Source of the DNA: Paenirhizobium cremeum
Lineage (GTDB): Bacteria > Pseudomonadota > Alphaproteobacteria > Rhizobiales > Rhizobiaceae
Assembly (NCBI RefSeq): GCF_022884085.1
Contig: NZ_JAGGCS010000004.1
Span: 176,599-240,598, forward strand
Reading direction: 5' to 3'
DNA length: 64,000 nucleotides
In this document: positions 9,328 to 20,282 of the stretch, piece by piece
How the letters are laid out: the number at the start of each line of letters is the position of its first letter
How positions within the stretch are numbered: position 1 is the stretch's first letter
Notes under the pieces: model-generated
What the model saw: the letters and a program-made list of their open reading frames with translations, nothing else
Told to the model about the DNA's origin: nothing
The model's database searches: none
Translations under genes and position numbers: made by a program

Positions 9328-11870
9328 AGGACTTTACATCACGGCTCGGCATCGCCTTTCGAATAGCACTTCGGGAACTGCGCGGCGGCTTGAAAGGCTT
9401 TTACATCTTCCTCGCCTGCATCGCGCTCGGCACCGGGGCCATCGCGGCGGTAAATTCCGTCTCCACCGCGATTACCGATTCCATTTCCTCCGAAGGCCGC
9501 ACCCTCCTTGCCGGAGACGTCCGCTTCGAACTGACCAATCGCGAGGCGAACGGTGAAGAGATGCGCTTCCTGGAAGGCCTGGGAAAGGTATCCGCTTCGA
9601 CGGTGCTGCGTTCGATGGCCCGCCTGCCGGACGGATCGGATCAGTCGCTGGTTGAGGTCAAGGCCGTCGATGAGGCCTATCCCCTCTATGGCGCCCTCGT
9701 CACCGAGCCGCCCCTATCGATACTCGACCTCCTTGCCTTGAAAGACGGAGCCTATGGCGCCGTCGCAGCACCCCTGCTTCTGGAAAGGCTCGGCCTGTCG
9801 GTCGGCCAGGAGATCCTTGTCGGAAAAGCCCGCTTCAGGATCACCGGCGCCATCGTCAACGAACCGGATTCCATTTCCGACGGCTTCGGCTTCGCCCCGC
9901 GTCTCCTGACCAGCCGGGATGCGCTCAGGGCAACCGGCCTTATCGAAACCGGCAGCCTCGTCGAACACGCCTACAAAGTCCGCTATAACGACCCGGCACC
10001 CGGACCGGAGGACGTGCGTCAAAGAGCGCAGAAGGAACTGCCGAATGCCGGCTGGTCTATCCGCACCAGCGACCGCGCCGCTCCGTCGCTCACGGAGAAT
10101 ATAGACCGTTTCTCGCAGTTCCTGACGCTGGTCGGCCTGACGGCCCTGGTGGTCGGCGGCGTCGGCGTCGCCAATGCCGTGCGTGCCTTCCTCGATTCCA
10201 AGCGCACGGTGATCGCAACGCTGAAATGCCTCGGCGCCCCGGCCTCGGTGGTGGTGATGGTCTATCTCTTCCAGATCGCCATCGTCGCCGCGATCGGCAT
10301 CGGCATCGGTCTCCTGCTCGGCGCCATCGCCCCGATCGTTGCCGCAAGCTATCTGGCCGGCATCCTGCCGATCTCTCCGGCCCCCCGGCTTTATCCCGGA
10401 GCCCTGCTGCTTGCGACCGTATTCGGCATGCTGGTGACACTCGCCTTCGCGATCCTGCCGCTGGGTCACGCCCGCAAGGTCCCTGCGACGGCACTTTTCC
10501 GGGAACAGGGCTTTGAGGCACGCGGGCTTCCGGCATGGCCTTACGTCGCAGCGACCGCGCTGGCGCTGGCCGCGCTGGCGGCGCTTGCGATTTTCACGTC
10601 CGACGACCGTCGCATTGCGGCAATCTTTCTCGTGGCGATGGCCGCCGGTTTCCTCCTCCTAAGGCTTGTCGCGCTGCTGATCGCCTTCCTCGCCCGGCGC
10701 AGCCCGCATATGCCGTCCCCGGCGCTCCGGCTCGCCGTTGGAAACATACACCGGCCCGGCGCATTGACGCCGGCCGTGACGCTTTCGCTCGGGCTTGGTC
10801 TCAGCCTGCTTGTGGCGCTTGCTCTGATCGACGGCAACCTGCGCAAGGAACTAACCGGAAACCTGCCGGAAAGGGCGCCCAACTTCTTCTTCGTCGATAT
10901 CCAGAAGGCCGACCTCGACGGTTTCCGCTCGATCCTGCAGCAGCGGGCGCCGAAGGGAAATATCGTCGAAGTTCCTATGCTCAGGGGTCGCATCCTCGCC
11001 TTCAACGGCACCGACGTTACCAAAATGCAAGTCCCTCCGGAGGGGCGCTGGGTGCTGCGCGGCGACCGTGGAATCACCTATTCCGCCGATCTGCCGGAGA
11101 ACGCCTCCGTTACGGAAGGAAGCTGGTGGCCGGCCGATTACACCGGGGAACCGCTTGTATCCTTCTCCGCCGAGGAAGCGCGAGAGCTCGGCCTGAAACT
11201 CGGCGACACCGTCACAGTCAACGTGCTGGGACGAAACATCACGGCCAGGATTGCCAATTTCCGCAAGGTGGAATGGGAGTCGCTGTCGATCAACTTCGTC
11301 ATGGTCTTTTCTCCCAACACCTTTGCCGGTGCGCCGCATGCCTGGCTGGCGACATTGACCGATCCGGGCGCCACGACCTCGGACGAGGCGGCAATCCTGA
11401 AAGCCGTCACGCAGACCTATCCGACCATTACCAGCGTTCGGGTCAAGGATGCGCTTGACGTCGTCGACCGGCTGGTCGGACAGCTCGCAACCGCGATCCG
11501 GGCCGCGGCAGCGATTGCGTTGATCGCTTCGGTCCTGGTGCTCTCCGGCGCGCTCGCCGCCGGCAATCGCGCCCGCACCCACGATGCAGTCGTGCTGAAG
11601 ACGCTTGGGGCAACGCGGGCGATGCTGATCCGGGCATTTACCTACGAATACCTGCTGCTCGGCGCTGCGACCGCTATCTTCGCACTCATTGCCGGCGGCG
11701 GCGTCGCCTGGTTCGTCCTCGCCAGGATCATGAAACTGCCCTCCTCCTTCCTGCCCGATGTCGCGCTCATGACACTGGTGATCGCCCTGGCGACGACGAT
11801 CGGCATCGGCCTTGCCGGCACCTGGCGCATACTCGGGCAGAAGGCCGCACCCGTGCTGCGTGAACTCTGA
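9324..11870 (+). CDS. ybbP: Large FtsX-domain ABC permease, YbbP type
   Basis: An 848-residue inner-membrane permease with the YbbP layout: one N-terminal helix (about residues 22-45), a large periplasmic domain, three helices near residues 260-365, a second group near 400-510, a second periplasmic domain, and three C-terminal helices (about 720-835). Two FtsX-type modules carry the motif around SKRTVIATLKCLGA and its C-terminal counterpart VVLKTLGATRAM, which contact the ATPase. It is translationally coupled to ybbA. The cargo is unknown; proximity to the TesA esterase suggests a lipid-related role. Confidence 0.9.
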   Translation: MKDFTSRLGIAFRIALRELRGGLKGFYIFLACIALGTGAIAAVNSVSTAITDSISSEGRTLLAGDVRFELTNREANGEEMRFLEGLGKVSASTVLRSMARLPDGSDQSLVEVKAVDEAYPLYGALVTEPPLSILDLLALKDGAYGAVAAPLLLERLGLSVGQEILVGKARFRITGAIVNEPDSISDGFGFAPRLLTSRDALRATGLIETGSLVEHAYKVRYNDPAPGPEDVRQRAQKELPNAGWSIRTSDRAAPSLTENIDRFSQFLTLVGLTALVVGGVGVANAVRAFLDSKRTVIATLKCLGAPASVVVMVYLFQIAIVAAIGIGIGLLLGAIAPIVAASYLAGILPISPAPRLYPGALLLATVFGMLVTLAFAILPLGHARKVPATALFREQGFEARGLPAWPYVAATALALAALAALAIFTSDDRRIAAIFLVAMAAGFLLLRLVALLIAFLARRSPHMPSPALRLAVGNIHRPGALTPAVTLSLGLGLSLLVALALIDGNLRKELTGNLPERAPNFFFVDIQKADLDGFRSILQQRAPKGNIVEVPMLRGRILAFNGTDVTKMQVPPEGRWVLRGDRGITYSADLPENASVTEGSWWPADYTGEPLVSFSAEEARELGLKLGDTVTVNVLGRNITARIANFRKVEWESLSINFVMVFSPNTFAGAPHAWLATLTDPGATTSDEAAILKAVTQTYPTITSVRVKDALDVVDRLVGQLATAIRAAAAIALIASVLVLSGALAAGNRARTHDAVVLKTLGATRAMLIRAFTYEYLLLGAATAIFALIAGGGVAWFVLARIMKLPSSFLPDVALMTLVIALATTIGIGLAGTWRILGQKAAPVLREL

Positions 11871-14563: not shown

Positions 14564-14965
14564 TCAAGGTTCGTCCGGTCGCAGCCGGTCGATTGCCCGT
14601 CGCTCTTTTTTGGTGGGGCGGCCGCTTCCGGAAGAACGCATCGCCTGCTCCAGCGCGCTGATGCGTTCCGGTTCCGGCGGCGTCTGGTCCTCATAGAGTT
14701 GGCGGGCCTCTTCGTAGGGCCCGCGCCGCTCGCCCGGCTTCAAGACCACCACAACGAGATCGCGCCGCTCCAGCGCGATCTCAAGGCGATCTCCGGGTTT
14801 CAGGAGGTGACTGGGCTGGCGCACGTTCAAGCCATTGACCTTGACATGCCCGGCAGACACCCGCTCCTGCGCCAGCGTCCGGGACTTGAGTATCCGCGCA
14901 AAGAACAGCCACTTGTCGATACGCTGGCGCGAACCGGAAGGTGGCTGTTGATCGGCGGACGTCAC
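14564..14965 (-). CDS. S4-domain RNA-binding protein (Hsp15-like)
   Basis: A 133-residue protein with an S4 RNA-binding domain at about residues 13-60 (RIDKWLFFARILKSRTLAQ) and a basic C-terminal tail. It resembles the ribosome-rescue factor Hsp15, which binds 50S subunits carrying nascent chains. It starts at a GTG that overlaps the helicase stop (GTGA), so the two proteins are translationally coupled and probably both act on RNA. Confidence 0.88.
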   Translation of the reverse strand: MTSADQQPPSGSRQRIDKWLFFARILKSRTLAQERVSAGHVKVNGLNVRQPSHLLKPGDRLEIALERRDLVVVVLKPGERRGPYEEARQLYEDQTPPEPERISALEQAMRSSGSGRPTKKERRAIDRLRPDEP

Positions 14966-17900
14966 TTCTTCATCTGCTCCTTCAGAGCAGCGAGCTTCGC
15001 AAAGGGCGAATCCGGATCGATCGGCTTTTCCTTTCGCGGAGGCTTGGCCTCAAAACGGGCAGGCTGCGACTTGTTGTCGCGTTCGGGCCGGTTGGGCCGG
15101 TCCTTGCGCTCGCCCCGATCCGGACGACCGCCGTCCGACTTCTGGCCGAAACCGCCGCGTCCGCCTTCCTTGCCCTTGGGTTTTCCGCCATGGCGTTCGT
15201 CGTCGCGGCGACGGTCGTCACGGCGGGCTTCGCCGCGGCCTTCGGCCGGTGCGCGATTGCCGCCATGCCCGCGCCGGTCGCCACCGGGACGCGCGCCACG
15301 CTGATTGTCGTTACGACCGCCCGGACGCCACAGGAGAACCGGCTTCGGCTCTGCAGGCGCAGCCTCGTCAGCGGAAGTTGATGCCTCGACGGCGATAGCG
15401 GTTTCCGCTTCGCCGGCAGACGTGGCAATCGCCTCGTCCGTGCTTGCCGTCTCATCCTGCGTCGCATCGGCACTCTGCTCGTCCCCGGAGGAAATCTCTT
15501 CCGGAGCCGCCTCGCCATCCGCGACGACTTCACCTGCCGGCGCGGCATCCGCTGGAGACTGGGCTGCAAGGAAGGCAGCCGCTTCTTCCGCGGTCACGCT
15601 GTCGGCGCGATAGCCAAGGCCCTTCAGGATTTCTTCCATGTCGTCAGGCGTCGCACCGAGAATCGACAGCATGGCGGTGGTGGTCGTAAAACGGCGGCCG
15701 TCATAGGCGCCGTCCGGACGCGGGGTCGCGCCGGGCTTCCACTGCAGCAGCGGCCGGATGAGATCGGCCAGACGCTCGAGAATGTCGATCCGCACGGCCC
15801 GCTTCCCGAGGAAGCGGAAGCCGGCGAGCTTGTAGAACATCCGCTCGAAGCTCGCATCGGTCACCACGGACGTACGGCCGGCGGCAAGAACCGGAATCAA
15901 GTCGCCGTAGCCGGGCTTGTCGAGGCCGTCATTCTTCAGCGCCCAGAGAAGGGTGATGAGCTCCGCCGGAGCCGGCTTCAAAAGCGCCGGCATGAAGATG
16001 TGGTAGGCGCCGAAACGCACCCCATAGCGGCGCATCGAGGCGCGCGCATCCTGGTCGAGCGACTTCACGTCGTCGGAAACGTCGCGGCGGAACAGCACGC
16101 CGAGGTTTTCGACGAGCTGGAAAGCCAGTCCCTTGGCGAGCCCCTGAAGATCCTCGGCGCGCGAAAGATCGTCGAGAGGCTTCAGAACCGTCGAGATGTG
16201 ATGATTAACGAAGCGTTCGATGCGGGCAACCACATGATCGCGCGCATTGCCGGTCAACTGCTCGTCTGCAAGCAGAATGACACGCGGATGCAGGATGTGG
16301 TCGCTGCCCGTCAGCCGGGCGACGGGATCGCCGAGCCAGCGAACCAGACCTTCCGAACTGATCGCAAGATCGTTGTTGCCGGAAGCATGCAGCCTTGCCG
16401 CCCTTGCCTCGAATTCGAGACCAAGCGCCCTCTGCGCCGCGGCCTGCACGGCCTTGGCGTCCGGCCCCTCGGTTCCCGAAATGGGCGTGAACCGAAAACC
16501 GGCGAGCTGCCCCATGTGATGTCCCTCCACGAAGACATCGCCGTTCACACTGATTTCAGCTTCCAACATCGCATTCTCTCTCAAGCGCTTCATGAGCACA
16601 GATGTCCTGCGATCAACAAAGCGTTTCGTCAACCGTTCATGTAGCGCATCGGACAATCGGTCTTCGATTTCCCGCGTCTTTTCTTGCCAGTGTGTCGGAT
16701 CGGCAAGCCAGCCGGGCCTGTTCGACACATAGGTCCATGTCCTGATCTGGGCGATTCGCGCGGAAAGCGTGTCGATTTCACCATCGGTGCGATCGGCGCG
16801 TTTCACCTGTTCGGCCAGGAAATCCTCGTTCACCGTGCCATGCCTGACGAGATCCGAAAAGAGGCTTTGGATCAGATCTGCATGCTGCGCCGGCGTGATT
16901 CGGCGATAATCCGGCAGCGCACAGGCATCCCAGAGCTTTTCGACCCGCGCCGGCGTGTTCGCAAGATCGATGACTTCCGGATAGCGGGCAAGGAAATCCA
17001 GCGCCTGCTGATCGATAGCCGGCAATGCACGTGTCAGTCCCTCGATGCGGGGCGCCGCTTCCAGGCTGCGCTGTAACGCCGTGATCGAGGAAAAATCGAA
17101 GGCGGCAGTGCGCCACTGCAAAATCTTCACAGTATCGAATTCATGTCCTTCGAGGCGCTCAACGAGTTCGTCGTCGAAGGGATCGACCCGTCCCGTCACC
17201 CCGAAAGTACCGTCCTTGAGATGCCGGCCGGCACGTCCCGCAATCTGCCCGAGTTCCGCGGGATTGAGATTGCGGAACTGGTAGCCATCGAACTTGCGGT
17301 CCTGAGCGAAGGCAACGTGGTCGACGTCGAGATTGAGACCCATGCCGATGGCGTCGGTCGCGACGAGATATTCGACGTCGCCCGCCTGATAGAGCCCTAC
17401 CTGTGCATTGCGGGTACGTGGGCTGAGCGCCCCGAGCACCACGGCGGCACCGCCCCGCTGGCGCCGGATGAGTTCAGCGATGGCGTAGACCTCGTCTGCC
17501 GAGAAGGCGACAATGGCGGTCCGCTGCGGCAGGCGGGTGATTTTCTTCTGCCCAGCATAGAAAAGCTGCGACAGGCGCGGCCTTTCGATGACGGTAATGC
17601 CCGGCAGCAATTGCAGGAGAATCGGCTTCATCGTACCGGAGCCGAGAAGCAGCGTCTCGTCGCGCCCGCGAAGATGCAGCAGCCGGTCGGTGAAGATGTG
17701 CCCGCGCTCGAGATCGCCGGCAAGCTGGATCTCGTCGATCGCCACGAAGGAGGCCTTGGTCTCCCGCGGCATCGCCTCAACCGTGCAGACGGAAAAACGG
17801 GCATTCGGCGGCGCGATCTTTTCTTCGCCCGTCACCAGCGCGACATGCTGGGCACCGACGCGCTCGACAAGCCGCGTATAGACTTCACGGGCGAGCAGCC

Positions 17901-18033
17901 GCAGCGGCAGGCCGATGATCCCGGAACCATGGGCGACCATGCGGTCGATGGCGAAATGGGTCTTGCCGGTATTGGTCGGCCCCAGCACAGCAGTGACGCC
18001 GCGGCCGCTCAGGATCATGGGTTGCGAATTCAA
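14962..18033 (-). CDS. Suv3-like ATP-dependent RNA helicase with a disordered RNA-binding tail
   Basis: A 1023-residue superfamily-2 helicase resembling mitochondrial Suv3. Walker A is GPTNTGKT (residues 18-25), the DEAD-equivalent box is DEIQ (about 97-100), and motif VI is QIAGRAGR (about 262-269). A Suv3-type helical C-terminal module follows. Beyond about residue 830 the protein is disordered: first acidic and Ala/Thr-rich, then Arg/Gly/Asp-rich with many RGG-like repeats, ending in a basic stretch. Alphaproteobacterial homologs are common, but their role, perhaps RNA turnover, is not well established. Confidence 0.88.
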   Translation of the reverse strand: MNSQPMILSGRGVTAVLGPTNTGKTHFAIDRMVAHGSGIIGLPLRLLAREVYTRLVERVGAQHVALVTGEEKIAPPNARFSVCTVEAMPRETKASFVAIDEIQLAGDLERGHIFTDRLLHLRGRDETLLLGSGTMKPILLQLLPGITVIERPRLSQLFYAGQKKITRLPQRTAIVAFSADEVYAIAELIRRQRGGAAVVLGALSPRTRNAQVGLYQAGDVEYLVATDAIGMGLNLDVDHVAFAQDRKFDGYQFRNLNPAELGQIAGRAGRHLKDGTFGVTGRVDPFDDELVERLEGHEFDTVKILQWRTAAFDFSSITALQRSLEAAPRIEGLTRALPAIDQQALDFLARYPEVIDLANTPARVEKLWDACALPDYRRITPAQHADLIQSLFSDLVRHGTVNEDFLAEQVKRADRTDGEIDTLSARIAQIRTWTYVSNRPGWLADPTHWQEKTREIEDRLSDALHERLTKRFVDRRTSVLMKRLRENAMLEAEISVNGDVFVEGHHMGQLAGFRFTPISGTEGPDAKAVQAAAQRALGLEFEARAARLHASGNNDLAISSEGLVRWLGDPVARLTGSDHILHPRVILLADEQLTGNARDHVVARIERFVNHHISTVLKPLDDLSRAEDLQGLAKGLAFQLVENLGVLFRRDVSDDVKSLDQDARASMRRYGVRFGAYHIFMPALLKPAPAELITLLWALKNDGLDKPGYGDLIPVLAAGRTSVVTDASFERMFYKLAGFRFLGKRAVRIDILERLADLIRPLLQWKPGATPRPDGAYDGRRFTTTTAMLSILGATPDDMEEILKGLGYRADSVTAEEAAAFLAAQSPADAAPAGEVVADGEAAPEEISSGDEQSADATQDETASTDEAIATSAGEAETAIAVEASTSADEAAPAEPKPVLLWRPGGRNDNQRGARPGGDRRGHGGNRAPAEGRGEARRDDRRRDDERHGGKPKGKEGGRGGFGQKSDGGRPDRGERKDRPNRPERDNKSQPARFEAKPPRKEKPIDPDSPFAKLAALKEQMKK

Positions 18034-18207
18034 TTACCGCTCCGGACTGCAAATGGCCGCCGGCAGGAACGAAAATCCGACCCGCAAACCTCGCCCACAC
18101 ATGGCGACGAACGCCGTCAAAGGCAAGGCCGATCATCGCCAAACTCCGAAAAGCGATGTGTTTCGGAAGACAAAAGCGCGCATTTTTCCGATTCCGGAAC
18201 AGGCTGC

Positions 18208-18270
18208 GAACGAATCGGCGACGAATCGACGACTCCAGCGGATTCAGCATTTGTTCACGGCTACATATCG
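18208..18270 (+). repeat. Two-box element, copy 1
   Basis: A 21-base block beginning GAACGAATCG is identical to the block at 19354. After 22 mostly different bases comes TTGTTCAC, followed by GCTA and ATAT, again as in copy 2. The spacing between the blocks is the same in both copies. Function unknown; it could be a promoter or a protein-binding site. Confidence 0.65.
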
Positions 18271-18362
18271 TCGGACTCTTGCCGGACTCCTACGAAATGC
18301 TGAATCAAATCATGAAGTTCCTGCTTTAAGGCAATCAGTTTGCTGGCAAAGCGGAGAATCGG

Positions 18363-18387
18363 GGAACTTCCGTCTGTCAATAGCGTT
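18363..18387 (+). promoter_or_regulatory. EcfG (general stress response) type promoter
   Basis: GGAAC at 18363-18367 and CGTT at 18384-18387 are separated by exactly 16 bases, an exact match to the alphaproteobacterial EcfG consensus GGAAC-N16/17-CGTT. No recognisable gene starts within the next 300 bases. Confidence 0.6.
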
Positions 18388-18697
18388 TCTGCCGGCGAGG
18401 TTGACACGAAATAAAACTTCCCCGCCACCGGCAGAATGGATCAGCAGAAGGAACGGCTATAACTTCGTTCTGCTCCACGTCATCGTCATGGCTCCCGTCT
18501 TCTGGCAGGTCTTTGGTCCCGACATCTGCTGGCAAGGAAGGACGGTCGCCTGTCCGTTGCCGGGCCATCATCCCTGGAAGCTGGCCCTTGCCGGCCAGTT
18601 TCTTTCGGCTGAAACCGTCGTCGCCTGCACGCCGAACACCCGCATATGCCGGAAATTCCCCTGGTTTGCCGCACTGTTGCAAGGGAAACGGCGCGAT

Positions 18698-18722
18698 GGA
18701 ACAAACTTGCCCACGCCGCGTT
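18698..18722 (+). promoter_or_regulatory. EcfG-type promoter of the DUF3309 gene
   Basis: GGAAC at 18698-18702 and CGTT at 18719-18722 with a 16-base spacer match the EcfG consensus exactly. It ends 48 bases upstream of the ATG at 18771, a normal promoter distance. The small gene is therefore probably part of the general stress regulon. Confidence 0.72.
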
Positions 18723-18770
18723 GAAGGCCAAGGCAGAACCGAGCTTTGCATCTGAATGGGGAGGGCCGCC

Positions 18771-18926
18771 ATGCTGAGTACTATTCTCGTCGTTATCATC
18801 ATTCTGCTCCTGATCGGCGCGCTGCCGAACTGGGGTTATAGTCGTAGTTGGGGCTATGGCCCTTCCGGTGGATTGGGCCTTGTGCTGCTCATCCTTGTCA
18901 TTCTCTTGCTCATGGGCCGGATTTGA
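18771..18926 (+). CDS. DUF3309-family small membrane protein
   Basis: A 51-residue peptide. Two hydrophobic segments (residues 4-18 and 35-49) flank a Trp/Tyr/Gly-rich hinge, WGYSRSWGYGPSGG, the hallmark of DUF3309. A good ribosome site (GGGGAGGG) precedes the ATG. Such proteins are abundant in rhizobia and often stress-induced; their function is unknown. It lies 28 bases upstream of the lipoprotein gene, so the two are probably cotranscribed from the EcfG-type promoter. Confidence 0.85.
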   Translation: MLSTILVVIIILLLIGALPNWGYSRSWGYGPSGGLGLVLLILVILLLMGRI

Positions 18927-18954
18927 GCCCACGTTCCATCGAAAGGAAAAGACG

Positions 18955-19209
18955 ATGAAAAAAACTCTTCTTGCTCTGGCATTGATCGCTCCTCTCGCAT
19001 CCTGCACGGCTACGGAAAAAGGCGCGAGCATCGGCGCGGCTACCGGCGCCGTAGTCGGCGGCGTTGCAACGAACTCTTGGGGCGGAGCGGCGGTCGGCGC
19101 AGCGGTCGGCGGTGTTGCCGGCGCCCTGATCGGGCAATCCCAGGAACGACCGGGCTATTGCATCTATCGCGACAGGTATGGTCGCCGATATGAAGCGCGC
19201 TGCCGATAA
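18955..19209 (+). CDS. Glycine-zipper lipoprotein
   Basis: An 84-residue predicted lipoprotein. The signal peptide ends in the lipobox LASC, with the cysteine at residue 17. The body is a glycine zipper (GAATGAVVGG ... GAAVGGVAGALIG, about residues 27-60) of the kind that inserts in or lines membranes. The C-terminus is Tyr/Arg-rich. The ribosome site AAAGGA precedes the ATG. It follows the DUF3309 gene closely and probably shares its stress promoter. It likely sits in the outer membrane; the precise role is unknown. Confidence 0.85.
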   Translation: MKKTLLALALIAPLASCTATEKGASIGAATGAVVGGVATNSWGGAAVGAAVGGVAGALIGQSQERPGYCIYRDRYGRRYEARCR

Positions 19210-19276
19210 ACGCACGAGGAGGATTGCGGTTCCGGAACGAACCGCAGCCGCTTGATCGGCGAAACCAGCGCTTCCG

Positions 19277-19309
19277 AAAAGCCACCGGCCCCACCGCCGG
19301 TGGCTTTTT
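19277..19309 (+). terminator. Terminator of the DUF3309-lipoprotein unit
   Basis: GCCACCGGC (19281-19289) pairs with GCCGGTGGC (19296-19304), followed by five T. A smaller hairpin, GCGGTTC/GAACCGC at 19226-19245, precedes it. Confidence 0.85.
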
Positions 19310-19353
19310 GCCGACCGTTTTCAGCACCCGCGTTAAGACTTCGACCAAAGCCG

Positions 19354-19416
19354 GAACGAATCGGCGACGAATCGCTTACGCAGCGGGTTTCCCGCTTTGT
19401 TCACCGCTATATATTG
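19354..19416 (+). repeat. Two-box element, copy 2
   Basis: Second copy of the element at 18208, 1146 bases away in the same orientation. The 21-base block is identical, the middle differs, and TTGTTCAC and the ATAT-containing end recur at the same spacing. Two GAATC sites lie 11 bases apart in both copies. Confidence 0.65.
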
Positions 19417-19445
19417 TTGAATAACAAACGGTTAACCATAGAGAA

Positions 19446-19478
19446 CGGTGGATATTAAGGGATTTCCCTTAGCCACCG
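19446..19478. other. Long hairpin downstream of copy 2
   Basis: CGGTGG pairs with CCACCG, and inside it TAAGGGA pairs with TCCCTTA around a two-base loop, giving a 13-pair interrupted stem. It lies 30 bases after the two-box element and may be part of a small RNA or a binding site. Confidence 0.5.
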
Positions 19479-19501
19479 GATCGGATCGTTAACGTATGCG
19501 C

Positions 19502-19536
19502 AAAAGGCATGAGGCCGGCACGAAGGCCGGCCTCAT
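19502..19536 (-). terminator. Terminator of the phbA-phbB region
   Basis: ATGAGGCCGGC and GCCGGCCTCAT form a perfect 11-pair stem with a six-base loop. On the minus strand GCCTTTTG follows. It lies 20 bases after the phbB stop. Confidence 0.75.
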
Positions 19537-19556
19537 ATTATGACAGGCGAATTTTC

Positions 19557-20282
19557 TCAGACGAAAAACTGTCCGCCATTGGCCGAAATCGTTGAACCGG
19601 TAATAAACCCTGCATCGTCTGACGCAAGAAACACCACGATGCGCGCGACCTCTTCCGGTTCGCCGAGGCGACCAACCGGGATTTGCGGAATGATGCGTTC
19701 GTTCAGCACCTTTTCCGGGATGGCGCGGACCATCTCCGTACCGATGTAGCCGGGGCAGATGGCATTGACGGTGATGCCCTTGGCGGCCCCTTCCTGGGCG
19801 AGTGCCTTGGTGAAACCGAGATCGCCGGCCTTGGCGGCGGAATAGTTGGCCTGCCCCATCTGCCCCTTCTGTCCGTTGATCGAGGAAATGGTAATGACGC
19901 GCCCGAAATTGCGGTCCCTCATGCCGGACCAGATGGGGTGGGTCATGTTGAAGACACCGTTGAGATTGGTGTTGATGACCTCGCTCCATTGCTCCGGCGT
20001 CATCTTGTGAAACATCGCATCCCGGGTGATACCGGCATTGTTGACGAGCACGTCGACCGGACCCAGTTCCGCCTCCACACTGGCAATCCCTTCGACGCAG
20101 GCGCTGTAGCTGGAAACGTCCCATTTGAAGATCGGGATACCCGTCTCCTGCCTGAAGGCCTGCGCCTTCTCGTCGTTGCCGGCATAATTTGCCGCCACCG
20201 AATAGCCGGCGTCCTTGAGCGCGACCGAGATCGCCGCTCCGATGCCCCGCGTTCCACCCGTCACCAATGCCACTCTGCCCAT
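19557..20282 (-). CDS. phbB: Acetoacetyl-CoA reductase
   Basis: A 241-residue short-chain dehydrogenase that reduces acetoacetyl-CoA to (R)-3-hydroxybutyryl-CoA with NADPH, the second step of PHB synthesis. The cofactor loop is GGTRGIG (residues 9-15), NNAG follows at 81-84, and the catalytic set is S133/S134, Y147, K151. It lies 144 bases downstream of phbA on the same strand, so the two are probably cotranscribed. The PHB synthase gene is not in the window. Confidence 0.95.
   Translation of the reverse strand: MGRVALVTGGTRGIGAAISVALKDAGYSVAANYAGNDEKAQAFRQETGIPIFKWDVSSYSACVEGIASVEAELGPVDVLVNNAGITRDAMFHKMTPEQWSEVINTNLNGVFNMTHPIWSGMRDRNFGRVITISSINGQKGQMGQANYSAAKAGDLGFTKALAQEGAAKGITVNAICPGYIGTEMVRAIPEKVLNERIIPQIPVGRLGEPEEVARIVVFLASDDAGFITGSTISANGGQFFV

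Follow-up and report, generated by a model that had tools for sequence, protein, structure and literature searches.

A dense GANTC cluster in Paenirhizobium cremeum as one copy of an apparently old, tandemly repeated element upstream of a Suv3-like RNA helicase gene

Why does one 171-bp stretch of the Paenirhizobium cremeum genome hold nine GANTC sites, the sequence methylated by CcrM, and is that cluster part of anything larger? The window analyzed here is a stretch of 64,000 nucleotides of this genome, and all coordinates refer to it. An initial annotation of the window had placed GANTC sites at 18190, 18212, 18223, 18231, 18241, 18274, 18285, 18302, and 18356, all of which proved exact. It had also pointed to spacings of 11, 22, or 33 bp, and four of the eight intervals (22, 11, 8, 10, 33, 11, 17, and 54 bp) fit this description. 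Fewer than one site was said to be expected by chance per 171 bp, in agreement with a sampled genome average of 0.21, and the short tandem repeats that had been described are present as an 11-bp tandem within the cluster.

The GANTC cluster and its setting

The window contains 93 GANTC sites in 64 kb, and its second-densest 171-bp stretch holds three. As assessed by counting 452,001 bp, i.e. the window plus 20 sampled stretches or ∼8% of the 5.33-Mb genome, comparable clusters are not common in the DNA counted: among 543 GANTC sites, the cluster has nine per 171 bp and the best stretch elsewhere has four. Genome-wide (5.33 Mb), two GANTC sites are separated by exactly 11 bp at 16 places, three of which are at the cluster locus, and the backward pattern, used as control, occurs at 11 places. 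The cluster is real and was understated by the initial annotation, which lacked a second copy at 19343–19416. The runner-up cluster (four sites in 171 bp) lies near base 9601 of the stretch L210 (G000:C11), by hemE. This stretch holds hemE and parS-like sites and is the presumed origin region; a chromosome origin (oriC) at the cluster itself was rejected, these markers being located elsewhere.

By sequence comparison, the cluster is one copy (copy A) of a ∼75-bp, old, tandemly repeated element upstream of a Suv3-like RNA helicase gene. The helicase gene, an open reading frame on the minus strand (14962–18033) with a match to PF22527 (DEXQc_Suv3, E 9.8e-26), is divergent from the element, which points away from it. 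The core of copy A extends from 18196 to 18270 on the plus strand, as defined by conserved columns and a 63.1-bit match to R1, a sequence-only model made from 30 family copies. On the plus strand, this core consists of GGAAC (18196–18200) and GAAC (18208–18211), four GANTC sites (GAATC at 18212 and 18223, GACTC at 18231, and GATTC at 18241), TTTGTTC (18250–18256), and then a box, named box 1, reading CTACATATCG (18261–18270). The remainder of unit A (18271–18306, plus strand), delimited using the sequence, the family pattern, and an inverted repeat, has a spacer with GACTC at 18274 and 18285 and GAATC at 18302, together with a second box-like sequence, CGAAATGCTG (18293–18302), all on the plus strand. 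The centers of the two boxes are 32 bp apart in the window and 31 bp apart in the family consensus, and the inverted repeat, GATTCAGCATTT/AAATGCTGAATC, is 12 bp long.

Copy B (19343–19416, plus strand; R1 match of 67.4 bits) lies 1,146 bp beyond copy A and is alignable with it over the conserved part. Reading along the plus strand, it contains CAAAGCCGG, GAACGAATC (19354–19362), GAATC at 19369, TTTGTTC (19396–19402), and a box 1 that reads CTATATATTG (19407–19416). Model R1 detected no third copy in 452 kb of the genome, and a search of the whole genome at E ≤ 0.01 returned two matches and no further copy. A dispersed mobile repeat was rejected, there being two copies only and the six other matches listed at two mismatches stopping short of the element. 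A protein gene beneath the cluster was considered unlikely, the overlapping open reading frames being collectively set aside as probably due to chance.

Two plus-strand genes lie between copies A and B, one for a DUF3309 small protein (18772–18927; PF11752, E 2.8e-22) and one for a glycine-zipper lipoprotein-like protein (18955–19209; PF13488, E 4.1e-10). Beyond copy B there is a convergent short-chain reductase gene (phbB-like); phbB, like phbA and phaR, is a designation of our own. A candidate EcfG/RpoE2-like promoter, GGAAC-N16-CGTT, is found at 18363–18387 on the plus strand by match to the EcfG/RpoE2 consensus. This stress-type promoter candidate looks separate from the element, of which it is probably not part, and it would perhaps have the DUF3309 gene as target. 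By eye, EcfG-like GGAAC..GTT motifs were also seen before the DUF3309 gene in Rhizobium loci (e.g. L107, L184, and L200). In Rhizobium, the DUF3309 gene comes after the last element copy, and on a by-eye reading the gene downstream of the element varies among genera.

Conservation of the element

Whether the sites are conserved in relatives, a question raised by the initial annotation, has a clear answer, because the element is kept across the family, the order, and beyond. The 17-base core was found with at most one mismatch in 123 of 199 family genomes, frequently in copies ∼200–283 bp apart. In the 59 family genomes inspected, the first copy always points away from the helicase, three chance matches aside (L012, L018, and L020, which lie away from the helicase and were left out of the family set), and the core is ∼130–330 bp away from where the helicase match starts, with G210 as the exception (∼790 bp). 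An exact 21-base pattern run over 84,980 species genomes hit at least 119 stretches, in hosts including Rhizobium, Mesorhizobium, Ensifer, Hoeflea, Nitratireductor, Brucella, and Bartonella. Among the matches listed, in which two contigs occur twice, the helicase is present in 109 of 119 stretches, and eight of the ten stretches that lack it have their match within ∼400 bases of the stretch end.

With model R1 at E ≤ 0.01, 214 of 297 order genomes were matched, against ∼3 genomes expected by chance, and there were up to five matches per genome. Although a local 11-bp tandem does exist, this conservation refutes the notion of a chance cluster or a meaningless local repeat, which we regard as practically impossible. 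All 30 loci retained from the order search adjoin the helicase, and 18 of them are outside the family. When 50 further families of the order were represented by one genome apiece, selected by the helicase only, without the motif, the element was found upstream of the helicase in 34 families (worst best-match E 0.002; the L356 stretch in this set is shorter than intended). In all 34, the best match is directed away from the helicase, and 21 of them have two or more copies within ∼1 kb, with counts and directions read from tables. Outside the order, the regions upstream of the helicase were compared in 40 class genomes from 34 families, hand-picked from 119 helicase-bearing ones rather than taken as one per family. 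The element is present at E ≤ 0.004 in 11 of these genomes, which represent 10 families; all 11 matches share the same direction, one of them being a partial match over 26 positions. One locus in a family far from Rhizobiaceae (L329; G388:C40:46000-51000) carries four tandem copies ∼225–236 bp apart. As judged from this distribution, the element is older than the family. No description of it was found in the literature searched, which leaves out most subscription journals and supplementary tables.

Anatomy of the element

The core consensus is GAAC..CGAATCR..TTC..GTTC..CnAnATnTnG. An alignment of 72 distinct copies, drawn from both order and class, has CGAATCR in 70. Three of its rows are matches to places already represented, on the opposite strand, several rows come from close relatives, and the class part drew on 10 of the 40 class loci, taken after an earlier result was seen. 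All six letters of CnAnATnTnG are present in 42 of 48 gap-free order/class copies. Constancy of the core is partly by construction, because the copies were found via the GAATC core; this also applies to the family sets used below (62 A and 68 B sequences), which stem largely from searches for that core. The other GANTC sites are less constant: in the order and class, 28 of 60 copies retain the first one (offset 4), 29 of 72 the one at offset 23, and 25 of 69 the one at offset 33. Among the 153 family sequences of copy A, 47% have a GANTC at −7, 86% at 23, 66% at 33, and 71% at 93, and sites 4 and 15, by which these sequences were found, are present in 153 of 153. Units are bracketed by GTTAAC, which in 68 reduced B sequences falls in bins −30 (38) and +130 (33).

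In many Rhizobiaceae (28 family sequences; 19430–19439 in the window), the last copy is followed ∼22 bp after box 1 by TTAACCATA, which is similar to a CtrA half-site. In 24 Mesorhizobium loci, the A–B interval contains a conserved AT-rich block that reads approximately CAAnATTATGAAATnGTTGATCTTTC. CenR was considered as a binding protein and rejected, the motif given for it in the available part of one study, TGA-N8-TGA (PMC9275681), not fitting the element. For ChvI, the literature passages at hand offered no motif to compare with the element.

The 11-bp spacing of GAACN7GAAC and GTTCN7GTTC raises the alternative that the locus is mainly a LexA/SOS operator array whose boxes the GANTC sites overlap. 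Such overlap is on record, LexA boxes being able to share bases with GANTC according to the accessible passages of PMC7987155, and LexA may play some role, given that 54 of 62 sequences of copy A have GAACN7GAAC ahead of the core and 55 of 62 have nTTC-N7-GTTC (49 of 68 for copy B). However, the left box GAACN7GAAC is present in only 16 of 68 B copies, perfect GTTCN7GTTC is limited to 10 of the 62 A copies and 13 of the 68 B copies, and the constant core repeat is GAATC rather than GAAC. An operator array would also leave the GANTC excess of the spacer, described below, unexplained, and we consider it highly unlikely as the main function.

GANTC counts and DNA methylation

The spacer between the boxes of copy A, in 62 divergent sequences, holds 16 GANTC sites versus 3.6 ± 2.0 in shuffles (0 of 500 reach this number), with the control words GTNAC, CANTG, and CTNAG at expectation (4, 4, and 2, respectively). 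Further along copy A, at 98–200, 48 GANTC sites were counted versus 22.7 ± 4.6 expected, distributed over 20 of the 62 sequences and with T (16), A (15), C (9), or G (8) as middle base. There is no excess upstream of copy A (21 versus 21.5 expected), nor in copy B outside the core, at 63–84 (3 versus 3.9) or 98–200 (15 versus 23.5). Because the excess of GANTC with a free middle base is also seen in non-conserved stretches, methylation itself is probably selected in copy A. In the helicase upstream regions of the 50 order families, GANTC occurs at 6.45 per kb, versus 2.2, 3.9, and 1.8 for the control words, but it exceeds every control word in only 24 of the 50; a 171-bp stretch with at least six GANTC sites is found in 10 of the 50. 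Outside the order, no overall GANTC excess was found (76 versus 60, 77, and 30 for the control words). These counts support selection on methylatable sites only for copy A, across the family as well as part of the order.

Of what the initial annotation suggested, that the cluster may couple DNA methylation or replication timing to expression of a neighboring RNA or gene, the role in methylation is partly supported. The excess in the copy A spacer and a constant site that fits the GcrA/CcrM motif speak for it. On the other hand, A is fixed as the middle base of both GAATC sites in the core, copy B lacks an excess outside the core, only 28 of 60 more distant copies retain the first GANTC, and there is no overall excess outside the order. 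On this comparative evidence, methylation is only part of the story.

GcrA and NrdR motifs

An extended motif, YGAKTCG/K, has been proposed for GcrA acting with CcrM in Caulobacter, whereas no extended GcrA motif was found in Brevundimonas, as stated in the portions of PMC7987155 that were available. CGAATCR is the reverse complement of YGATTCG and thus fits this motif, and the P. cremeum genome encodes GcrA (PF07750, 200 bits). Among the genomes outside the order, a GcrA scoring at least 150 bits is encoded in 10 of 11 with the element versus 6 of 29 without it (Fisher p 8.5e-5), in a comparison for which the cut was set after the scores were seen and which is confounded by shared ancestry. 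When any GcrA-family match is counted (10 of 11 versus 23 of 29), there is no separation, again with phylogeny as confounder. Our odds were slightly lowered by this finding that simply having a GcrA does not tell the two groups of genomes apart.

Box 1 is reminiscent of the boxes bound by NrdR. In the family, it has at least five of its six fixed letters in 52 of 59 A copies and 48 of 52 B copies, and a second box 31 bp on is found in 34 of 59 A copies and 5 of 52 B copies (32 bp on in the window). The nrdJ gene of the same genome is preceded by CTATATCTAG and CAATATAGAC, 31 bp apart and themselves preceded by TTTGTTAACA, and such a box pair is present in 11 of 18 family nrdJ upstream regions. 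A scan for box pairs in 444 kb of the genome found none, the window copies included. In an NrdR–DNA structure, conserved G-C pairs are at 9/18 and 40/49, 31 bp apart, according to the consulted part of PMC9110341. The likeness is a resemblance and not membership, because there is no reductase gene near the element; the sole ribonucleotide reductase (RNR) locus found in the genome is on another contig. A further sequence, CCACAAGATGTGGTGTTAACCATTT, which resembles box 1 of the element plus its TTAACC end, is located ∼250 bp upstream of the nrdJ box pair (L209; G000:C23:33000-41000).

Transcript, DNA site, or operator

Each copy could instead be the promoter of a fast-changing, trans-acting non-coding RNA, the locus then being a set of tandem small-RNA genes. 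The copies do repeat together with a promoter-like half, in which box 1 could serve as a CTATAT-like −10 element, and the A–B interval is fairly conserved among the 24 Mesorhizobium loci. In the window, the sequence beyond copy B has a better fold than 200 of 200 shuffles (z −5.3), but this score includes a hairpin (19509–19536) that is probably the terminator of the convergent phbB-like gene. Moreover, conservation within the family is poor beyond box 1, and no known RNA family was recognized, Rfam giving zero matches in 17900–19700 of the window and in 11 loci. An RNA hairpin in the core, in which GAACGAATC would pair with TTTGTTC, was rejected, no covariation being detected over 72 distinct rows in a check that covered the core stem: pair (4,44) is GT in 24 rows, GC in 20, AT in 11, and AC in 8, and for pair (19,33) the count is 35 of 68. 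Small-RNA genes are thus a plausible but unlikely explanation.

A purely DNA-based function, in which the array makes no product and serves to titrate or load a protein of replication or the cell cycle, has in its favor that no conserved product was found and that GANTC number is kept while positions shift. It would also suit the location of the element: of 14 genomes in which a single large contig carries both it and hemE, 13 have the two 63–483 kb apart (the G210 distance is counted round a circle). Gene order by itself may, however, account for this proximity to the origin, and in G033 the distance is 810 kb, measured to the hemE next to parS-like sites. Words resembling DnaA boxes come after copy B in 10 of 68 sequences (0–1 for control words) but after copy A in just 1 of 62. 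A titration site, in addition, has no need to be tied to one gene and one direction, as the element is. We consider that such a DNA-only site is doubtful, though not far-fetched. A related and more specific proposal, that the element is an ancient alphaproteobacterial DNA site that would sense fork passage via GANTC methylation and dNTP supply via NrdR, acting in cis or by titration with no conserved product, seems distinctly unlikely. To our knowledge, no counterpart of SeqA or datA is known in alphaproteobacteria.

We favor protein-bound DNA, because the downstream genes vary, Rfam gives no match, the core stem does not covary, and the sequence after box 1 is poorly conserved. The proteins bound would control the helicase and perhaps also a short transcript. 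More precisely, we assign a probability of roughly 45% to the element being a cis-regulatory promoter/operator array, upstream of the helicase gene, that reads the state of the cell cycle and of DNA synthesis. In brief, (i) GcrA with RNA polymerase would read CcrM-methylated GANTC, i.e. the constant CGAATCR and the free-middle-base sites of copy A, (ii) NrdR or a relative would bind the palindromic box, as expected at nrdJ promoters, (iii) copy A additionally bears the LexA-type GAACN7GAAC, and (iv) what is transcribed in response would be the helicase gene, a short divergent RNA, or both. The sequence data establish that the element exists, is conserved, keeps its place and direction, and has a GANTC excess in copy A; which proteins bind, whether the sites are methylated, and what the output is are parts of this scheme that we infer, and the term promoter region is an assumption.

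Comparison with known systems

The targets of the CcrM/GcrA switch differ even between close relatives, as reported in the part of PMC7987155 available to us. Should the array be read by CcrM and GcrA, it would represent a methylation-switch target that is kept across many families beside one gene, and the scheme, if true, would link cell-cycle methylation and dNTP sensing to a little-studied Suv3-like RNA helicase. The element would also offer a compact repeated site for asking whether GANTC number and spacing matter.

The element is like the GcrA/CcrM promoters of Caulobacter (mipZ, ctrA P1, and podJ) in having intergenic GANTC sites, the constant one of which fits YGAKTCG/K. Unlike them, it comes in tandem copies, with up to ten GANTC sites per 171 bp in other families, and is kept beside one gene over a large group. 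With the RNR promoters that carry NrdR boxes, it shares CnAnATnTnG, with a partner ∼31 bp on in copy A, and TTTGTTnAC just before the palindrome, as at nrdJ of the same genome, whereas it has no adjoining reductase gene and its box 2 is poor or absent in copy B. It resembles the alphaproteobacterial LexA operators (GTTCN7GTTC) through the GAACN7GAAC of most A copies, although the half-site in its core is GAATC and GAACN7GAAC is not kept in most B copies. In Escherichia coli, datA and DARS act on DnaA, and SeqA sites act on hemimethylated GATC. The element is similar to these sites in being non-coding and origin-proximal, with helically spaced methylation sites, and in having some DnaA-box-like words nearby in a minority of copies, but unlike them it is fixed to one gene.
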